Shown here one piece after another: positions 45,670 through 58,967 of a stretch of DNA of 64,000 bases. Location: positions 73,064 to 137,063 of the forward strand of contig JAENYV010000003.1 of NCBI GenBank assembly GCA_016841605.1, given 5' to 3'. Origin of the DNA: Dethiobacter alkaliphilus (lineage in GTDB: Bacteria > Bacillota > Dethiobacteria > DTU022 > UBA8154). The notes below the pieces were generated by a model. That model was given only the letters and a program-made list of their open reading frames with translations. It was not told where the DNA came from and did no database searches. The position numbers and the translations under genes are program-made. Position 1 is the stretch's first letter; each line of letters starts with the position of its first letter.

Positions 45670-46080
45670 ATGATTAATAAAAAAATTAAAAAAATTTCAC
45701 CATCTATGGATGAATGGCTCAAAGAAGCAAAAGCGGATCCTGTTGCTTTAAAGGTAGGAATGTTTTTAGTTCATAATGGTGTTGTACGCCAAACGCCTAA
45801 AGCAAAGGTTCGCCAAGGGTTTGATGATGGTTCGTTGGTAAAAGGAATGGAATTTTTCTATGATGCAGTGAAAGTTGATGAGGCGATTGCGGAAACTTAT
45901 AAGATGGATGGAATATTCTATGTTAAGGTGTGGCTTAATGAAGGTCAGCTTGAAATTGGGGATGACATAATGTATGTACTTATAGGTGGCGATATTAGAC
46001 CCCATGTTGTAGATGCTCTTCAGTTCCTGGTTGAAAAAATCAAAACCAAATGTGTTACTGAAATAGAACAAAAAGCATAA
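45670..46080 (+). CDS. MoaE-like protein (molybdopterin synthase large-subunit family), orphan
   Basis: 136 residues: VGMFLVHNGVVRQTPKAKVR, VKGMEFFYDAVKVDEAIAET, IFYVKVWLNEGQLEIGDDIM and GGDIRPHVVDALQFLVEKIK, which follow the MoaE order of blocks although the catalytic region differs from the E. coli type. A typical MoaE sulfurylates precursor Z together with MoaD. Here there is no moaD or moaA beside it and the gene lies in the accessory island, not with the Mo-cofactor operon at 11-14 kb. AAGGAG lies 11 bases before the ATG. Confidence 0.7.
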   Translation: MINKKIKKISPSMDEWLKEAKADPVALKVGMFLVHNGVVRQTPKAKVRQGFDDGSLVKGMEFFYDAVKVDEAIAETYKMDGIFYVKVWLNEGQLEIGDDIMYVLIGGDIRPHVVDALQFLVEKIKTKCVTEIEQKA

Positions 46081-46775: not shown

Positions 46776-48295
46776 ATGACTTTGCCATTACGACATATAT
46801 CGGTACGGGTGCCTTGGCATGACAGTGGTTGGAACGGTAAGATTTGCATGGATTCCAGGAACAATTCTGCGTGCATGTTTTTGCCAAGAATTCAGATGCA
46901 AAAAACATTCCCCTAATTGACAGGATTGACAGAGTGTTGATTGGCGCTACCACGGTTAAAAGAGTCGGCGAATTAGTTGAATACAAATACAAAACAAAGC
47001 ATCCCCCCCTCAGAAGTTCTTTCTGGGAAAGGCCCGTTTACCATGGATTAAATCCGAAGTATGATGAGGGGTTCATCCTCCCATACCAAGAGCTTATTGC
47101 GTTCCTGACTGACGAAAGCCAGGAAGAAATTGAGCAATATATCGCCTATGCTCCTAATTTCGAGGAGTTTTCATATGGATCCGAGCTCTTATCTCATGAC
47201 ACAGCCATAGATGCATTAATATCATTGAGAAACGCGCTCCACACCATTACTGAGAAACTGGGTACAAAACAAGCCTACCAGGGGCAATTTGCCTGGATAA
47301 ACGAAAAACTAAGTAACCTCTGGAATATGCGTGGGGCCTTTCCGGGCCTTGGCCCCGTATTGAGTGCCATGCAAGTGCCGGAAGGGAATATCGTTGCCTG
47401 GGAAATTGAAAAATATTTACGTCAGCAAGACGGCAAAATCCCAAAAACGGATCCATGGGACAAGGTATTAGAAGTATTACATGGGAAGGCAGACTGGTTA
47501 AGGCAGGACCTACGTGCATCTATAAGTAAATCGCTGGCAGGGGTTTGGGAAACAATGCCAAAGGAAAGAAAGGAATACCTGAAGCTCCTAAGCCGGTTAA
47601 ACATTAATAACGAGCAGGCGGAGTATTTCTATGAGAACCATAGTGAACATGATTACCTGAACAATATGTACTTGTTTTATGAGAATTCAATTTTAACCAA
47701 CCATCCCATCAGTATTGATGTTGTTGATAAAGCGGTTTACTTAAAAGAAAACCTCTTGAAAACTTTCCCCCTTCCTGAAAGTGCACAGGCTGATGGTTTA
47801 CACGATCATCGCAGGATCAGGGCTTTTGTGCTAAACACCCTTGAGTTGTCAGCCTGCCAGGGGCATTCCCTGCAAACCCAGGAACAGGTTATTTCTTCAA
47901 TTAATGAGCGGGATAAAGAAAACCCCCTTTCTGTCACGCGGGATATTCTCAATTACACAGAAAAATTCTTCGCAGATAAAATTAAGATTGAGCAGGTGCA
48001 AAGTGAAGGGGATTCAGGTTATAAGTATTATAAACTATCCCGTTATGCTGATTATAAAAAAATAATTTACAATACGGTATTTAATAGAGTACATAAAGCA
48101 AGACGGATTAATGTAACAATCAACTGGCAGGACCTACTGGATTTAGAAATCAAAGCAAAGGAAAGCCCCTCTGACCGGGAACGTCAGAAAGAAGACCGTG
48201 CCCGCAAGGAAAAACTGGCAACACTCGCAGAGATCAGCCAATCCCGCTTTTCCATTATTATTGGTCCGGCAGGCACGGGTAAAACAACGCTCTAA
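46776..48295 (+). pseudogene. RecD-like helicase, N-terminal part (frameshifted and cut after Walker A)
   Basis: An ATG at 46776 after AAGGAA opens LPLRHISVRVPWHDSGWNG, NNSACMFLPRI, then the frame meets a TAA at 46914. The rest of the protein continues in another frame from about 46890 (KNSDAKNIPLIDRIDRVLIG ... WERPVYHG) for ~470 codons up to IIIGPAGTGKTTL and a TAA at 48295. This is the large N-terminal region plus the Walker A loop of a big helicase; the motor domain is missing beyond it. Its C-terminal part lies inverted just to the right, fused to Res. Such helicases occur in defence loci. Confidence 0.8.
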
Positions 48296-48349
48296 TAGCA
48301 GTTTCTCCTCCAGGTCATTGACACTGAACCATTCCACGAATTTCAGGTT

Positions 48350-51300
48350 TTACCAGTTTTTACTCTTGTGCTGAACAATTTCCTCGAAGATATCCTCTTC
48401 TTTCCTAACCAATGAACTGCTGAACCACTGACTGAGGCGCACATCAATCCTGTCTTGTGGCATCCCTCCATCCCCGGGGGAACCTTTTTGTTGCCTGAAT
48501 ATCTCTTTCAGTTCATGTTCCTGTGTGGCCTGTTTGTAAGGAACAATCCCGTTGTGTGCATACCATTCCTTTTTCATCTCCCATTTTTTCCGATAGCCAT
48601 CATGGGCAAGCATTCCCAGGTGTTCCCAGTAAAACACAACACCAAGTTCCCTGTTTTCAATCGTAAAATCAGGGTGTATGGTAATACCCCGGGCGTCGCA
48701 GATTGGCTGTTCATAGGTGTAGGGTACTTGCTGGTAAAACAACTGATCGGCAATGATTACTTCAGATTTTGAGATCATAAATTCGCCCAGGGCGGATATT
48801 TGGACATAATTTCTGTCATAGTAGCGTTTCTTTATCTCTTTTAGTGCCGGTGTGCTGAATATATCAGTAAGCCGGCGGCCCGTTTCGCTGAATCCATCGT
48901 TTGTATATTTTTTGAAATCTTTAATATCACCTTGATGGAAAATTATGATACGGTCCTCCTGGCGGGTTAGGGCCGTATATAGCAGCTCGCGGCTCAAGAG
49001 CCTGCATGGATTGGGGAGAATGAGAAAAACGGTCTTAAAGCCGCTGCCCTGTGATTTGTGCACGGTAATGGCATAGGCAAGTTCAAATTCAATATCACCG
49101 TCTTCCCTGAAATCGGCTTCCTTTAAAGCATAGGCGTAGCCCGGTTGTGAGGAAAACTCGATCTGAACATTTGGGGGATCGTTGAACAACTTCTTCGCAC
49201 AAGTTATCTTAGCTTCCTCAATATCGTCGGTACGAGTCATTTCACCGAATTTTGTTGATTGCATACTGCCTTTTGTTTCTACAATAAAGAAGATATGCTT
49301 CACCGCGCCCTTCTTAAATGAAATGGCCCAGTCCGGGGAGTAATTGCCAACGGGTGTCGGGATATAAAACCCACGCGGCCCCCTCGGCAGTTTGGCATAG
49401 ACTATCACCTCGTCGGCAGCGTCCAAGTCTTCGGCGAATTGCCTCTCGATGCTGTTGGCCGAAGTACCGTCCGTAAAGATATAATCTTGAATGGCGTTTT
49501 TTGCCTTGAAGGCCTTGGCGTATTCATCGGAAGCCCGGCTCATATTAAAGATGTCCTGAGAATACGGTTCTTCCGCACTCGGAGCATAGGTGATATGCTC
49601 CACGACTACAGAAGCTTTTTGACGATTAATAATGCCTGCGGTCCTGCTGATGAATTCCTCCGGATTTTCGCAGAACAACCATAGCTTCTCAGGCAAGATG
49701 CCTTTGAGTATTGCCGTGATCGTTCGGCGCGTAAGGGTTGCTCTTTCCGCTATTTTGCCAATAAGGTCATACTCGGCATGGCCGCCTTGGGCACTGTCAA
49801 GTTTTTTTGTCTCTGTACGCTTCACGTTAAATTCTATGCCTTCTTGTTCGCCTCGAGTAATGCTATAGGAAAGCCGGGCAACTCTCAATTCTGCATTGAT
49901 GGCAGCGATGGACTTCTGAATAAGTTCGTCGCTGACAAACTCCACTGTGTAAGCATATTTTTTGTTAATTCGATCCCACAGTTCCTTAAAGTCCTTCCAG
50001 TTTTCATTCAGTGGATTGTCTTTAACCTTCGTTTCATGTCCGTTGCCTGCCATATCTTTCAGAATACTTGGGTCGAAAATAGCTTGTACCAGCTTGTGGA
50101 TGCTCTCGGAAAGCGGTTCAAGTTCCGGTTTTAACGGTTCAAAGTTACCCGTCTCTGCGGCAGCGCGGTAAGTGTCCGTAATACCGCCGTTGTCGTCAAC
50201 ATAATAGTTGCGGACAAGATAGTGGTATATTGCGGTGGCCTCTGCTTTCGAAATTGTATGTATGTTGTCACCGATATTAATGCTTTTACCGCTAAAATAC
50301 TCAATGCTCGCTTTCGTCGGGCGTTCATAAATATCGGCTATGATTTCACTCTGCAATTCCGCAACAAATTTGGTATAGCTTTCGCTTGCAACAACGGTCA
50401 GCATATTCACGCTGTGAACGAGGTCGTCTCCGCAAACTTCTAAATCCTGCCGTTCACCGGTGCTATTCACGCAAAGGCGCATGCCTCGCCCCACTTCCTG
50501 CCGTTTTGTTGTAGCGCTGTCGGAATGCTTCAAGGTGCATATCTGAAACACATTGGGGTTATCCCAGCCTTCCCGCAGAGCGGAGTGAGAGAAAATAAAC
50601 CGGGTCGGCTCATCAAAGGAGAGCAGCCGCTCTTTGTTCTTTAGGATGAGATCATAAGCAGAGATGTCGTCCGAAAACTCACTGCCGCGCTTGACTGTGC
50701 TGTTAACAGGGTGCCCTTTTTTATCTATGGAGAAATAGCCCCGGTGGGTGTCGGCGGCATCGATGCCTCGCAGATAGGCCTGATAAGCCGAAGGTACTAG
50801 CGTTAGCCGCTCGTTTAGTGCAGCGGTGTATTCTGCCTCGAAGATACGGCCATACTCACCGAGGACTTCCTCTCCTTCGTCACCATATTGGCGGTAATTC
50901 GCTACCTCATCGATGAAAAAGAGGGATAGGCACTTGATGCCCTGCTCAAACAGCTTTTCCTCCTTATCAAAATGTGAGGCTATTGTTTCGCGGATTTGGA
51001 TGCGGCGTATATCCCTCTCGTTGACATTACCGCTTGCTTCTCCTGTTGACAAGATATCACCATTTGAAAATTTAACCAGCGCACGTATCGGGTCGATTTC
51101 AGCGATGGAAATACCTTTATATTCTTCCAGCCCATTTGATGCGGTATAAAGGCTATCACCCGCGCCGAGTATATGAATCTCGCGTTTAATACCACTGCTG
51201 CGTATTACCTCAAATTCCAACCTAGCCCGGGGAGGCTTCTTGTGGTCGATTACAATAGCGGCAAGATACATATATCGATTTGTCCCGCTCAGGTTTTTTA

Positions 51301-51616
51301 ACTCGAAGCCCTTGACCTCGATTTTTTTAACAAGCTTCTTTTTATAAGCGTCAAGAGCGTCAAGGACATAAACAAGGTTGTGTGAGGTCTTATGCGTTGC
51401 CGAATAGTTCAGCGAGAACAACGGGTTGAAATTCTTCTTCAAAGCATTCTGTGTCGCTGCGCCGCCCATTTTTTGGGGCTCGTCCAGAATAATAATCGGG
51501 CGGTTTGCCTTGATGACATCGATGGGCCGGCGGGAGCCGAACTCATCCCGTTTGCTGTAGATAATTCTCGCTGCCTCGTTGCCCCTTCTTCCCTCGACAT
51601 TCTTAGCCTCATTCAT
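48350..51616 (-). pseudogene. Chimeric open frame: type III restriction subunit (Res) body fused to the C-terminal part of the RecD-like helicase
   Basis: 1088 codons without a stop. Residues 1 to ~815 are Res: RPIIILDEPQKMGG (DExx box), NYSATHKTSHNLVYVLDALD, HSALREGWDNPNVFQICTL, RQEVGRGMRLC, and the PD-ExK nuclease NYSPDWAISFKKG...FIVETKGS. From ~820 the sequence becomes helicase-C-like: ELAYAITVHKSQGSGFKTVF, LLSRELLYTALTRQEDRIII, then a nuclease-like tail (IHPDFTIENRELGVVFYWEH). The junction is near 49160. The Res part lacks its ATPase start, which lies in another frame upstream (51624-52150), so the original enzyme is dead; a fused protein could still be made from an internal start. Confidence 0.85.
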
Positions 51617-51623
51617 TGTCGTG

Positions 51624-52150
51624 TTAAATGCCTGGGTGTTGATTGATCATGACATTGATGCCGGAAGACTGGGAGAACTCGTCCAACTGGTGCAGGTTGA
51701 AGGAATTATAGACAAAAAACCGGGCCTTCATTCCATATGGTTCCATAAAATGTTCCTGTGTGATTTCAAAGGATTTCTTAATCCCTTCGCGGATGGCAAT
51801 GCTGGGCACGACGACGATGAACTTGCTCCAGCCATAAGCCTTGTAGAGCCCAAACATGGTCTTGATATAGACATAAGTTTTACCGGTGCCGGTTTCCATT
51901 TCCACATCAAGCGAAACGACACCAAGCCCGGGAACAAGCTCATTGGAAAGCTTAATATTATTTGCCATTTGAATATCACGGATATTTTTCAGAAGCTGTT
52001 CCTTGGCTAGTTCTACGTCCGCGTTTCTATAAGCGGCTTCAAGTATTTCAATTTCTTCGACAGTTAATTCATTGCGTGTGTTATAGTATTTATTCCAGAG
52101 TTTTTTGCGTTTTTGCTCTTCGGTCTCATCGAATAAGCTTGATTGCGGCT
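51624..52150 (-). pseudogene. Res, Walker A segment (separate frame, between IS3 and the frameshift)
   Basis: Reads [59 protein letters not shown] (Walker A), [20 protein letters not shown], and ends SGINVMI. The next residues of the family (NTQAFNTT) are found in the following frame: a TGAT unit is duplicated at 51640-51647, causing a frameshift. The right end stops at the IS3 boundary. Confidence 0.85.
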
Positions 52151-52224
52151 TGACCCCCTGTCATTGGAGAATATACGTTTAAACTCTCAATCTTACTTAA
52201 AAATACTCTAATTTTGAGCAGCCG

Positions 52225-52345
52225 CCCTTGACATGGGGCCCCTGGTGTCCATGTTTCATAGGGCCAGTCAGGGCCAGCTGCAGCTAACGCTTTGTGGCCC
52301 ATTGCCGAAGGCAGGCTAACATGGACACCTTCCCCATGTCAAGGG
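52225..52345. repeat. Long imperfect hairpin in the non-coding tail of the IS3 element
   Basis: CCCTTGACATGGGG (52225-52238) and GGTGTCCATGTT (52244-52255) are complementary to CCCCATGTCAAGGG (52332-52345) and AACATGGACACC (52318-52329). It lies between the orfB stop and the IS end. Confidence 0.8.
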
Positions 52346-52363
52346 TCTTCGATAAACGGCTGC

Positions 52364-53179
52364 TTAAGCAACGAACTTTTTGCCTGTTATCTGCTTATTA
52401 ATAACAGCCTTGAAGTACTTAGCTGGGGCCATGTATCCGATACTGCCGTGCCGGCGGCGATTATTATAATAATCCATATATTCACTAATAACCCTGTATG
52501 CGTCAGTAAAACTGGAAAACTCATTTCTACTGTAACATTCGTCTTCCAGGATCGAATGGAAGGATTCAATATAGGCATTCATATTAGGTGTTTTTACCGG
52601 GATTCTTTCATGCGTTAGCTTCCATTTCCAACATGTTTCTTGAAATATCTTAGCTGTAAACTGGGAGCCATTATCTGTCCTTATGATCGGTAACTCCATA
52701 CCGGGTTTCAATCCCCGCTTCTTAAGTGAATTAATAAGCACTGCACAAGCATCTTTAGCTTTTGCACTTAGCCCAAGGTGATAGTCAATCACTGAGCGGT
52801 CATATACGTCGATAAGGGATAGCTGGAAAAAGAACCTGTCAATACCTGCTATATACCCATACTTCAAATCCATCTGCCAGTGCTGGTTTGGAGCAGTAAC
52901 TTTCTCTCGTTTGGCTAGTTTTCTCGGACGAAACGGATATATCTTACGTTGAGGTCGCAAGACGTTAAGTTCTTTGCAGAGCCTGTAAGTTTTCTTGTTA
53001 TTTATAATAAGCTGATAGTCTTCTTGCAAGGTTATGTTGATTTTCTTATAGCCATAGGGAAAACCATCCCCGGCAATTATATCTTTAATAAAATCTTTTA
53101 TTGTGTCATCGGGGACTTTTTTCCCTTTTGAATTTACTGAGTAACCTGGAATCTTGCGTCCCGGTTGCTTTTTAGACAA
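52364..53179 (-). CDS. IS3-family transposase OrfB (DDE integrase)
   Basis: 271 codons from the first start-like codon; the frame is open upstream to at least 53325 (PSVADRVAIAKRWIEKGYHS...), overlapping orfA, so the true product is likely made by frameshifting from orfA. Catalytic residues: Asp in HWQMDLKYGYIAG, Asp in PIIRTDNGSQFTAKIF and Glu in NMNAYIESFHSILEDE. It ends YFKAVINKQITGKKFVA. It looks intact. Confidence 0.93.
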   Translation of the reverse strand: MSKKQPGRKIPGYSVNSKGKKVPDDTIKDFIKDIIAGDGFPYGYKKINITLQEDYQLIINNKKTYRLCKELNVLRPQRKIYPFRPRKLAKREKVTAPNQHWQMDLKYGYIAGIDRFFFQLSLIDVYDRSVIDYHLGLSAKAKDACAVLINSLKKRGLKPGMELPIIRTDNGSQFTAKIFQETCWKWKLTHERIPVKTPNMNAYIESFHSILEDECYSRNEFSSFTDAYRVISEYMDYYNNRRRHGSIGYMAPAKYFKAVINKQITGKKFVA

Positions 53180-53307
53180 ACCTTGATTAAAGGCAGTTTC
53201 GTTAATTTTATGGTAGTAGGTGGATGAAGCAAGACCGACAGAGTTAAGGACTATAGAAGAATGATAGCCCTTTTCTATCCACCTTTTAGCTATAGCAACC
53301 CTGTCGG

Positions 53308-53622
53308 CTACCGAGGGTTTGGAATATCTCTTAATTCTCTTAAAATAGCCAGCTCCAGCTCTTTATCAGCAAGAAGGCGTTTTAACCTGTCATTTTCAGT
53401 GCTAATTTCTCTAAGTTGCCTTTGCATAGCTTTCTGGCGATCATCCTTAGCTCTGGGCAATGGTTTAACTGTACCATGTTTCCGATACTTATTTAACCAA
53501 GTATGAATAGTGTTAGAAGAAATCTCATGTCGGCGAGCTACTAAAGCCACATTACCTGTTTCTTGACACTCCTTAATAATCAATTCTTTGAATTCATCAC
53601 TATACTGTTTGTTGTTTTTCAT
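53308..53622 (-). CDS. IS3-family OrfA (helix-turn-helix protein)
   Basis: 104 residues: YSDEFKELIIKECQETGNVA, RRHEISSNTIHTWLNKYRKH (helix-turn-helix) and a C-terminal leucine-zipper-like stretch REISTENDRLKRLLADKELE. It recognises the IS ends and is the upstream partner for the OrfAB fusion. The overlap with the orfB frame near 53310-53345 fits programmed -1 frameshifting; I did not pin down the slippery site. Confidence 0.93.
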   Translation of the reverse strand: MKNNKQYSDEFKELIIKECQETGNVALVARRHEISSNTIHTWLNKYRKHGTVKPLPRAKDDRQKAMQRQLREISTENDRLKRLLADKELELAILRELRDIPNPR

Positions 53623-53696
53623 TAAAACCTACCCCCTATTAAAATGTTAACATATTAAACGTGTTTTCTCCAAATTCTTTAGGGGGCTAAATAGAT

Positions 53697-53845
53697 TGCT
53701 CATATTTTTGCTCGCTTGGTCCCTTGCGTTTGCCGAGGTCGAGTCGGTACTTGCTCATACCTTGATTTGGCTGTCCTGCAAATACCTTGACTACGCTTTC
53801 GGCGGCTTCTGTTTGGAAAGGCTGTATTTTAAACTGAAATTTCAT
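53697..53845 (-). pseudogene. Res, first ~49 codons (cut off by the IS3 element)
   Basis: The ATG at 53845 comes directly after the mod stop. It reads MKFQFKIQPFQTEAAESVVK, VFAGQPNQGMSKYRLDLGKR and then runs into the IS end with a TAG. This is the start of the type III restriction subunit whose remainder lies at 52150-48350. Confidence 0.85.
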
Positions 53846-54376
53846 TTACAGCACCCTCCTTATTGTGCTCGGACTATAGGTGGAGAACACCTGCTCAAAG
53901 TTTACCATTGCACTGTCGCTCAAGAAACTACTGTCGCGGAACACAGCGTAGTACGGTTTTTTCTTTGCAATTTCTATAATAAGGGCGGTATCAACCCTGC
54001 CAAAGCAGGCAATAAGGTAATTGTCGTTGACATAGAACGTTTTGTCCTCCTGGTTGATTTTCGCCGAAGGCGGTATACCAAGGTCAAGCATAACCTGGAA
54101 AAGCAAGTCCTCATCTGAACGAGCGGGTTTGATATTATCCATGAAGCCCTCGATATCAAAGTTCAACTGAGCGTACCCTTCAGGTGTATAGTACACATTT
54201 TTCATATTGCTGCTGTCGAGTTTGAGAACACGGAAACCGATGTCTAAATTTTCAATACTCTCTTTGTCTTTGTTTTCTTCTTTGGTTTTCTTTCCTGCAC
54301 GGCGGATACGTTCTTTGCCAATTTCGCAGATTGTCTTGTATCCGGCTTTTGAGCTGCTGCACTGTCTTCTTGGCAT
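53846..54376 (-). pseudogene. Type III DNA methylase (Mod), C-terminal part after a frameshift
   Basis: Reads ICEIGKERIRRAGKKTKEEN, IGFRVLKLDSSNMKNVYYTP, DEDLLFQVMLDLGIPPSAKI, YLIACFGRVDTALIIEIAKK and FEQVFSTYSPSTIRRVL, the usual C-terminus of type III Mod proteins. The true sequence enters from the neighbouring frame at about 54360. The stop is adjacent to the res start, as in intact mod-res operons. Confidence 0.85.
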
Positions 54377-54745
54377 ACTTCTGGCAATTGTACCAAAATA
54401 AATTTGCGCTTCCCGTCGTCTTCTGTGTTAAGTTGCATTACTGCGTGTGCGGTCGTGCCACTACCGGAGAAAAAATCAAGGACAATATCATAACTGGTTG
54501 TTGATAACTGCATGCAGCGTTTTATCGTACCAATAGGTTTAGGGTTATTGAATATTGTCTTTTCAAATGCTAAATCAATAAATTGTTCTGTTCCGCGTTC
54601 ACTATTTACATCTTTATATGTCCATGAACTTATCGGCTTTAGCAACTCTCTACCCTCTAGGTAATCTTTTACCATAATACCCCATATTTTTCGAGTTGGC
54701 ATATACTTAGGTATTAGTTTGTTGATATTAGAAATAGTGAAAATA
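54244..54745 (-). pseudogene. Type III DNA methylase (Mod), SAM-binding segment, N-terminus lost
   Basis: Homology starts near 54745 (IPKYMPTRKIWGIMVKDYLE) and includes the SAM-binding motif DIVLDFFSGSGTTAHAVMQL and KFILVQLPEVCQ. It then leaves frame at ~54360. The target-recognition region and the catalytic DPPY segment are absent, replaced by the truncated helicase gene. The methylase cannot be functional. Confidence 0.85.
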
Positions 54746-56513
54746 GCAGAACTTTTTTGTTGCCCTGATTGAACGGGTGCTGAATTTTCTCAGATATAAG
54801 CTGAAGAAGTGTCTGCAGCTTTGTGTCGTGTTCTGGTGTGATGTCTTTTATCATCAAGATTAGTAATTTCAGGGTTTCAGAGTCCTCGATAAGCTTTTTA
54901 CGCCAGGATATGTAGTCCATATCACCAAGGTCAATATCAATCTTCTTAGTGCCACCTGTAAAGAAGTTAGTATTTTGGTCATCGTCATCAAAGTCATTTT
55001 CGGAGAGTTCTCTAGCGCTTATTACCTTCCTGCTGCCCCTCTCATAGTTGTCTATCTCAGCAATCTTATCATCAATAAGGCTTTTTACCCTCTGGATTGT
55101 GATATTAAAGGATGCCACTGAGCTCTCAAGTCGCTTCAAAAGATTAATGCACATCAGTCGGCGAATACCGATTTCACGCCCAGCACGGTCAATATTCACA
55201 TTTGGGTCGATATATTTTGCCCGTTTGCTATCGAGCAAGAAATCCGTAGGGATATAGACGGCTAAATTCAGCCCCATTAGCTGCTCGTAAATTATGTCAT
55301 AGTCAATAGCGGAGGGCAGGTTGGTTAGTTTTGGACGAAGGGCTATTGGCTTCATCCTTTCCGGAAATTTTCCTATCTCCTCAATATTGTAGTAATTTTC
55401 GATATGCTTACGGGAACGGGCAATGGTTACACTGTCAAGCATGGTGAAAAAGTCAAAATCAAGGTCGCGGAGAAGGTTTTCGGTGGTGCGCTCTTTGGCT
55501 TCAAGCCTACACCATTTATTAAAGGCGGTTTGGGCGTTACGAAAGATAACATCAATAGGTTTTGTCGTATCCAGTTTATCATTTATGAGTGCGGGGTTAC
55601 CCTCATAGGCAAGTTCAAGCTGATGCCGTAAATCAGAAAAGCCATTGTTTACAGGTGTCGCTGAAAGCATCAGCACCTTTGTTTTGACACCTTTGCGGAT
55701 AACCTTATTGAGCAGTTGAAGATAGCGGTTCTCACGCTTGTCAGCACCCCGCCCGTAATAGTCCCCACCATTACGAAAATTATGACTTTCATCGATAACG
55801 ATTAGGTCATAGTTACTCCAGTTAAATTTAGAAAGGTCTATAATGCCGGAAAAGCCGCTTTCCCTAGACAAATCCGTGTGGTAAAGCACATCGTAGCGCA
55901 GAAAGTCTGTGAAAATAGGATTATTCAGGTAATTTTCTTTAAATGTGTACCAGTTATCACCAAGTTTTTTTGGGCAGAGGACGAGTACAGTGCGATTACG
56001 CAGTTCGTAGTATTTGATTACCGCAAGGGCGGTAAAGGTCTTGCCGAGACCGACGCTATCGGCAAGAATACAACCATTATACCTTTCCAGTTTGTTGATA
56101 ATCGCGAGGGTCGCATCTTTTTGGAAGGCGTACAGCTTGTTCCAGATTTTTGTTTCCTTGAAGCCCGTTGCCTCATTTGGCAGAACATCCTCGTTGATAT
56201 CCGCAAGAAACTCGCTGAAGATATTGTAAATAGCAACAAAGTAAACGAACTCCGGCGAGTTCTCATTGTAAGCGGCAGTGATGCCGTCGATGACTTGCTC
56301 GGTCACGTCCTGCAGCAGCTTTTTGTCGTTCCAAATCATATTGAAACTATCGAGGAACTGGCGACTTTCTAAATGGGCAAATTTAATCGTTTGCACAACA
56401 ATATTGTTGCCACGTTCACAGCCTAGGTCTGAGGTGGTAAAGCCGTTGATCGGTGTATACGAGAATCCGCCGTCAGCCTGCTTTACGTCGAGGAAGGTGT
56501 TGATCAAATCCAC
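54714..56513 (-). pseudogene. SNF2/DEAD-type helicase, motor domain, C-terminus truncated
   Basis: 599 codons: INGFTTSDLGCERGNN, YAFQKDATLAIINKLERYNG, ILADSVGLGKTFTALAVIKY (Walker A), YDLIVIDESHNFRNGGDYYG (DEAH-like), TKVLMLSATPVNNGFSDLRH (motif III). It ends KKVLLFSLFLISTN near 54714, where an intact protein would enter the second RecA-like lobe; instead the sequence passes into mod. The N-terminal phospholipase-D-like region is in another frame upstream. Confidence 0.85.
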
Positions 56514-56830
56514 GCTGCAAATTCACGGGCAATTACTTTCTGGGTTAATTTGTTTCGCAGCTTGACTTCGAACTCCGTGCCGTAAAGTGAGCGCTCGCGG
56601 TTAAGCCGAGGAATATAAAATTCCCGTTTCTCTTTCGGAGCTTTTTCCTGCAAGAATGTCGGTGAGGTGAAAATAAAGCGCAGCTCATCAATACCATCAA
56701 GTTGTTTTTTGAGAGCTTGGTAAGCATATATTGAAAAACAAGCGGCGGCTATCGAAAGCTTATCACCTTTCGATATTGTTGCCGCCAAGTCATCTTTAAC
56801 GGTTTTATTAATATTGTCGAGAATTTGCAT
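56504..56830 (-). pseudogene. PLD-like N-terminal region of the SNF2-type helicase (frameshifted)
   Basis: 108 codons from an ATG at 56830 after GAGG: MQILDNINKTVKDDLAATIS, KLSIAAACFSIYAYQALKKQ, LRFIFTSPTFLQEKAPKEKR, LYGTEFEVKLRNKLTQKVIA, then a stop at 56504. The helicase continues in the next frame (VDLINTFLDVKQADGG). Together they are one gene of the PLD-plus-SNF2 kind often found beside type III mod-res operons. Confidence 0.8.
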
Positions 56831-57007
56831 ATGTTTTTCCTCATTTACAACAAATATTACAGGTTACTTCGAATGAAAAAAGGTTTGCTTAGTTTAATAA
56901 AATCATAGAGGGAGATCGAGATTTCGCTTTTTAAAAAAAATGTTTGTTCAGCAGACTGCTCCTTGCCTGGTCAGCGGTGTAATGTTTAGAATTATTGTAT
57001 AACGTTT

Positions 57008-58116: not shown

Positions 58117-58335
58117 TTATTTTTTAGAATTTTCCCATTCATCTCTGCTAATTTTAGCTTGGTTTAATATTTTTTCCAGCAACTCAGGCCATATCTCTTT
58201 TTCTTTATGTTTGTTAGGTATTGTGAGCTTAAGTGTTCCTTTCACCATATATGGATGCTTACTACCTGAAAATGGCCCATTAAAACCAAATTCTTTTAGC
58301 CTCTTTATTAGGTCTCTTCGGCTTATGGGCTGCAA
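58117..58335 (-). CDS. hicA: HicA-type toxin (mRNA interferase)
   Basis: 72 residues: ISRRDLIKRLKEFGFNGPFS, GSKHPYMVKGTLKLTIPNKH (catalytic His), LLEKILNQAKISRDEW. HicA toxins cleave mRNA through a double-stranded-RNA-binding-like fold. It starts at TTG 58335 after GAGGAAAG and overlaps hicB by 13 bases, typical coupling of a toxin-antitoxin pair. A dead copy lies at 46316-46480. Confidence 0.9.
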   Translation of the reverse strand: MQPISRRDLIKRLKEFGFNGPFSGSKHPYMVKGTLKLTIPNKHKEKEIWPELLEKILNQAKISRDEWENSKK

Positions 58336-58967
58336 CTTTCCTCAACCACCTTGCCTAATTCTATTCCGTCAAGAACAGGTAACGGGTCATGATCAAGAAG
58401 TTTTAAAACTATCCACTCTTCAATAACTTCTCGTAATATAGAAATACATAGCTCTTTAGTATCTTCGTTTGCCCATACCCCAGGGCATTCTGGTATCTCA
58501 GCATAATAAGAGCCGTCGCTTAATCTCTCAATCTTAGAACTTGACATTGCCGCTTTAATGTATGAAGACAATATAGGCCTTGTTTCCAATGTAAATCCAG
58601 CCTCTCTATTTTCCGTTTTAAAATGGTCCTCGGCCGTATGATAATTACTCATTTCCATTTTTAAATTCAAGTTTAATTGATGCAAATTTTCTTCTTCTAT
58701 GATACAATATGTCTTTTCCTTATTATAGTTTAACCAATTATTTCTTTTTTTTTGCATCAGCTGAGGAGTTAGAAAGTTTTGAAGTTTTGAATATAAGTCT
58801 TCCATTTTATTTCTCTTACCCATAATAATTACCTTAATTATATCAGGGTCATTATTTCGACGTCGATACATCATTTCAATATTTGGCATGTCAGAGAAAT
58901 CGTTCTCGTCATAAGGCAATGTATAACTAATTCTTTTATTCTTCTGAAAAAGCCGAGGCTGCATCAT
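58323..58967 (-). CDS. HicB-type antitoxin with a ~130-residue N-terminal extension
   Basis: 214 codons. Residues ~133-214 are HicB: ILSSYIKAAMSSSKIERLSD, GSYYAEIPECPGVWANEDTK, LREVIEEWIVLKL. That is the full usual HicB length, and HicB would neutralise the adjacent HicA. The first ~130 residues (DIIKVIIMGKRNKMEDLYSK, KKRNNWLNYNKEKTYCIIEE) match nothing I know and are charged and Asn-rich. They may be a real fusion or an upstream gene that lost its stop. The start overlaps the preceding gene by 32 bases. Confidence 0.72.
   Translation of the reverse strand: MMQPRLFQKNKRISYTLPYDENDFSDMPNIEMMYRRRNNDPDIIKVIIMGKRNKMEDLYSKLQNFLTPQLMQKKRNNWLNYNKEKTYCIIEEENLHQLNLNLKMEMSNYHTAEDHFKTENREAGFTLETRPILSSYIKAAMSSSKIERLSDGSYYAEIPECPGVWANEDTKELCISILREVIEEWIVLKLLDHDPLPVLDGIELGKVVEESCSP

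Follow-up and report, generated by a model that had tools for sequence, protein, structure and literature searches.

A 1088-codon open reading frame in Dethiobacter alkaliphilus (positions 48350-51616, minus strand, of the window, i.e. the whole 64,000-nucleotide stretch of DNA that was analysed) is very probably a pseudogene. It lies in what is best read as a decaying defence island, in which a scrambled RecD-like helicase of the PADLOC candidate-defence family PDC-S68 was joined in phase, by chance, to a broken type III restriction gene (Res). The finding is an ordinary one, two broken anti-phage genes joined fortuitously, and it carries a caution: a long open frame may be a dead chimera even when two domains can be recognised in it, and an automated annotation might label it a fused restriction helicase. 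The locus is also a clear example of defence-island decay through deletions, short inversions, frameshifts, and an insertion sequence (IS).

The chimeric open reading frame

The frame starts with ATG, is single-copy in the genome, and lies inside a 279-kb contig. A preliminary description of this DNA had given its extent exactly, and its account of a Res start followed by the C-terminal motor and nuclease-like tail of a RecD-like helicase was borne out by profile matches. Amino acids 1-812 are type III Res (PADLOC REase_III at aa 18-812, 712 bits), and the Pfam match RE_endonuc (PF19778, aa 718-820, 77.7 bits) places the C-terminal PD-ExK endonuclease domain in the frame. Amino acids ~817-1024 are the C-terminal motor and nuclease end of PDC-S68 (family match at aa 812-1035; Pfam UvrD_C_2 at aa 846-890), and the last ~63 codons (aa ~1026-1088) come from the middle of the same helicase and form a third piece. 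The order is thus Res, C-terminal piece (C), middle piece (M), and an in-frame TAA at 48350-48352, within M, terminates the frame. The switch from Res to helicase, earlier put near 49160, was measured at 49168-49180.

The start codon (51616) is an internal methionine of Res, downstream of a +1 frameshift. No Shine-Dalgarno sequence was found there, while the orphaned native Res start at 53845 still has one (AAGGAGG), which argues for a pseudogene. That the protein is a functional fusion of the Res nuclease half with the C-terminal nuclease half of the helicase is very unlikely, even though 1088 codons are open and Res motif II (DEPQ), the PD-ExK motif, and the helicase SKSEVI/PDFTI/YWEH tail are all kept. 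Neither motor is complete: DEPQ lies inside the frame and the Res Walker A outside it, upstream in a frame of its own (51624-51968), and the helicase has lost most of its motor ahead of VHKSQGS. Besides the missing Shine-Dalgarno sequence, the fusion was seen in no other genome searched, and the Mod partner that a type III Res depends on is truncated. Judged from the sequence, the product is probably neither translated nor active, and its expression as a new two-nuclease protein with a function gained after the rearrangement would be highly improbable.

Decay of the restriction operon

The main part of Res (49181-51643, minus strand) corresponds to codons 196-1015 of the 1041 in the Res gene of locus L061, to which it is 80% identical; it contains motif II and the PD-ExK motif (PDW..ETKG) and lacks Walker A. 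A +1 frameshift relative to both L060 and L061 lies at 51643-51646 (minus strand), and because of it Walker A is left out of the chimeric frame, in the N-terminal part of Res (51645-52124, minus strand, other frame). Near codon 50, Res is interrupted by an IS3-type insertion sequence (52147-53692, minus strand) with an HTH_Tnp_1 frame and an rve frame (Pfam), of which a 99% copy was found elsewhere in the genome. GATTGC direct repeats (a 6-bp target duplication) flank both ends, and the second copy is flanked by GAAACC. The element would belong to the IS3 family, an assignment made only on its transposase domains; a 6-bp duplication is longer than expected for IS3. Codons 1 to ~50, with the native start and its Shine-Dalgarno sequence, lie at 53693-53845 (minus strand), and at the other end the last 26 residues of Res are lost at 49180. 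Since Res was also broken independently, by the IS with its matched target duplication and by the frameshift, the pseudogene reading gains support.

The rest of the operon is degraded as well. Mod is a remnant of residues 360-628 (53849-54657, minus strand), frameshifted at ~54350, and no intact Mod partner is present at the locus. A SNF2-like helicase of the same operon is reduced to residues 2-724 of 1087 (54732-56860, minus strand) and frameshifted at ~56500. A ~3-kb deletion joins SNF2 to Mod residue 360, with loss of the SNF2 C-terminus, DUF4391, and the Mod N-terminus. Because these genes were also deleted or frameshifted, the locus is read as a decaying island. An intact minus-strand SNF2-DUF4391-Mod-Res operon is found in two genomes of other families of the same phylum, G201 and G299 (SNF2 1080-1087 aa, DUF4391 205 aa, Mod 628-651 aa, Res 1025-1041 aa); the window shares its gene order and strand but differs in these deletions and in the IS within Res. 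Compared with type III Res in general (PADLOC REase_III PDLC03647; PRK15483), residues up to 1015 of 1041 are kept over the pieces, at ~80% identity to Res of G201 and G299, whereas the gene is split by the IS, frameshifted, and has its C-terminus replaced by helicase pieces, next to a truncated Mod. On comparison with the intact operons of relatives, the type III restriction side is judged to be dead.

Among Res codons with a single change, the nonsynonymous/synonymous counts were 17/115 on the window branch and 17/251 in the two intact relatives combined (Fisher p=0.035 against the relatives pooled, not significant against either alone). This is weak relaxation, consistent with recent inactivation and not proof by itself, and its weakness suggests that the Res part was constrained until recently. 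Another genome of the same genus carries a remnant of a related Res gene (L028 9085-10015, G004:C142; 70-79% identical in DNA to the Res of the window) from which two internal stretches are deleted; defence-gene decay by internal deletion is found in this sister species too.

Helicase pieces and their rearrangement

Helicase pieces were numbered on L073, a full-length helicase from Pedobacter sp. MC2016-05 (1260 aa), and further pieces (residues 1-44 at 46776-46907; 773-837) were found by a PDC-S68 profile search of the genome. Piece N1 (residues 5-47; 46776-46904, plus strand; tblastn 60% identity, E 4e-15; PDLC05065 1-44) meets piece N2 at 46892-46907, where residue 47 adjoins residue 187 with a frame change and ~139 residues gone (profile search and tblastn). 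N2 (residues 187-652; 46898-48292, plus strand; tblastn 38% identity, E 7e-101; PDC-S68 E 2e-124) ends at Walker A, and its frame (46844-48295, 483 aa, PDC-S68 177-636) stops directly after GPAGTGKTTL. The earlier placement of the helicase N-terminal part on the opposite strand at 46776-48295, ending after Walker A, holds in this respect, but that part is two pieces in different frames.

At 48290-48296 the end of N2 (652) adjoins residue 850 of the inverted piece M (tblastn). M (residues ~765-850; 48296-48543, minus strand; 42-44% identity, E 3e-12 to 4e-15) was first a weak profile match (773-837 at 48296-48517, minus strand, E 0.035) and was confirmed by closer relatives (778-850 against L073, 42% identity, E 3e-12; 765-850 against L074, E 4e-15). 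At 48536-48547 residue 765 meets residue 1222 of piece C, in frame by phase. C (residues ~1010-1222; 48542-49168, minus strand; 65-66% identity to L073-L075) carries the VHKSQGS and TALTR motifs and the nuclease-like SKSEVI..PDFTI..YWEH tail. At 49168-49180 Res without its last 26 aa is joined in frame to C; the L061 DNA alignment stops at 49179, and the junction was also placed by protein alignment.

The four pieces do not overlap at all, and the three larger ones (N2, M, and C) have the same closest relatives, L073-L075, which points to one helicase gene cut up. Identities to these relatives were 38-41% for N, 37-40% for M, and 65-66% for C, and L073 and L075 compared over the same parts gave 42, 41, and 60%. 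Every piece matches the PDC-S68 family (PADLOC PDLC05065), whose closest full-length members were from Pedobacter, Sulfurospirillum, and Methanolobus (C part 65-66% identity). The window differs from them in that residues 48-186, 653-764, 851-1009, and 1223-1260 (~35% of the gene) are gone and M and C are inverted; no one frame of ~1220-1260 aa holds both SF1 motor halves plus the nuclease-like tail, the gene being in four pieces on two strands. An origin from a pair of helicases, a tandem copy behind Res (yielding C) and a convergent copy (yielding the N pieces), fused by deletion, is unlikely. L098 and L111 do have a PDC-S68 helicase downstream of Res in the same orientation, but the window pieces never overlap, the larger three are closest to the L073-L075 clade and not to operon-type helicases (C is 47% identical to that of L098), and M would need inversion anyway.

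Along the plus strand the pieces run N1, N2, inverted M, inverted C, inverted Res. A single inversion of the 3' half would have placed inverted C before inverted M, so one inversion is insufficient and two are needed. The earlier proposal, inversion of the helicase 3' part with loss of the middle, is therefore kept in its broad idea and rejected as a single event, because M, itself inverted, separates the N pieces from C; that description had also missed M itself, the IS, the Res frameshift, the helicase N-terminal deletion, and the SNF2 and Mod decay. From a convergent start two inversions with deletions would suffice; a tandem start (Res then helicase, same strand, as in L098 and L111) would take three, or a second helicase copy, and is less likely. 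No Res tail was found upstream of the helicase start. A helicase originally convergent to Res is favoured as most likely, with the same-strand helicases (of another clade) after Res in Syntrophomonas palmitatica and an Erysipelotrichaceae genome standing against taking this orientation as proven.

We infer an ancestral state in which an intact PDC-S68 helicase, most likely on the plus strand, faced the minus-strand SNF2-DUF4391-Mod-Res operon. Scrambling of the helicase would have taken several deletions and two or more short inversions, one inversion joining its C-terminal part to a Res gene without the last 26 codons. No repeats, inverted repeats included, were found at the junctions, so the pieces were probably joined by illegitimate end joining or template switching; the DNA of relatives is too distant to reveal microhomology there. 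A programmed, reversible inversion switching the helicase on and off was rejected as extremely unlikely: parts of one gene do lie on both strands, but the junctions lack inverted repeats, sequence was lost and not merely flipped, and, save the IS transposase, no gene for a recombinase was seen next to it.

In the scrambling proposed here, the two old frames would have happened to stay in phase, giving the 1088-codon frame. Both sides of each junction are old open frames, and phase is kept with a probability of 1/3 per join (1/9 for two). The length of the frame was inherited from two long ancestral frames; chance concerns the junction phase only. The preliminary description had also attributed the fused frame to chance; it overstated how unusual its retention is.

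The junctions are known from the assembled contig. Inverted sequences with intervening deletions make up over 85% of multiple displacement amplification chimeras (PMC1855051), a pattern that the locus matches, and the genome is a 36-contig draft. That the pieces were inverted and deleted in vitro or mis-joined, the true genes being intact and separate, is nevertheless quite unlikely. A single amplified cell would not usually yield a genome 98% complete in 36 contigs, the sequence around the junctions is unique and far inside the contig with no inverted repeat linking them, and the contig spans the 1.55-kb repeated IS with correct target duplications. The lesions in SNF2, Mod, and Res do not depend on these junctions. 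A profile search found the missing helicase parts nowhere else in the assembly, other contigs included, the other matches being RecD-like paralogues, which favours real scrambling and loss.

Relatives and neighbouring observations

The same fusion in other genomes, which the preliminary description had named as evidence of a real fused protein, was looked for and not found. In a whole-frame search of 398 phylum genomes (58 with matches, the window's own included), Res ended by aa ~830 and the helicase began at aa 815 or later, in separate frames, in all matches apart from the window. Alignment of the helicase C part gave 80 loci, none with Res in the same frame and 69 with the helicase N part in it. 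This absence favours the explanation by chance joining. Res of G201, G299, and S. palmitatica (80-85% identity) extends 26 residues beyond the junction to its own separate end. Two loci (S. palmitatica and the Erysipelotrichaceae MAG) have a separate PDC-S68 helicase, from another clade, downstream of Res and in the same orientation. Single-protein searches with the helicase N part gave no match in genome contigs or viral contigs, and the junction DNA was found neither in viral contigs nor in the 22 other genomes of the family. In the literature searched, no paper named PDC-S68 and none linked DUF4391 to type III restriction.

What lies immediately 3' of this type III Res varied among relatives (L061 5768-8803; L060 5819-8017; L098 5020-8714; L111 5025-8747), the slot being occupied by SIR2 and short pAgo (G201), by a PDC-S06 ATPase (G299), and by the PDC-S68 helicase in a same-strand operon (S. 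palmitatica, Erysipelotrichaceae MAG); defence genes may use this site as a cargo slot. In S. palmitatica (L098, around 4386 and 7803) Res and the PDC-S68 helicase are each apparently split into two frames, and either gene may be a pseudogene or contain sequencing errors. Within the window, a frame at 58323-58967 combines an unrelated N-terminal part of ~130 aa with a UPF0150/HicB-like C-terminal domain and is possibly another joined frame. A MoaE-like frame (PF02391, 33 bits) lies at the island edge (45670-46080).
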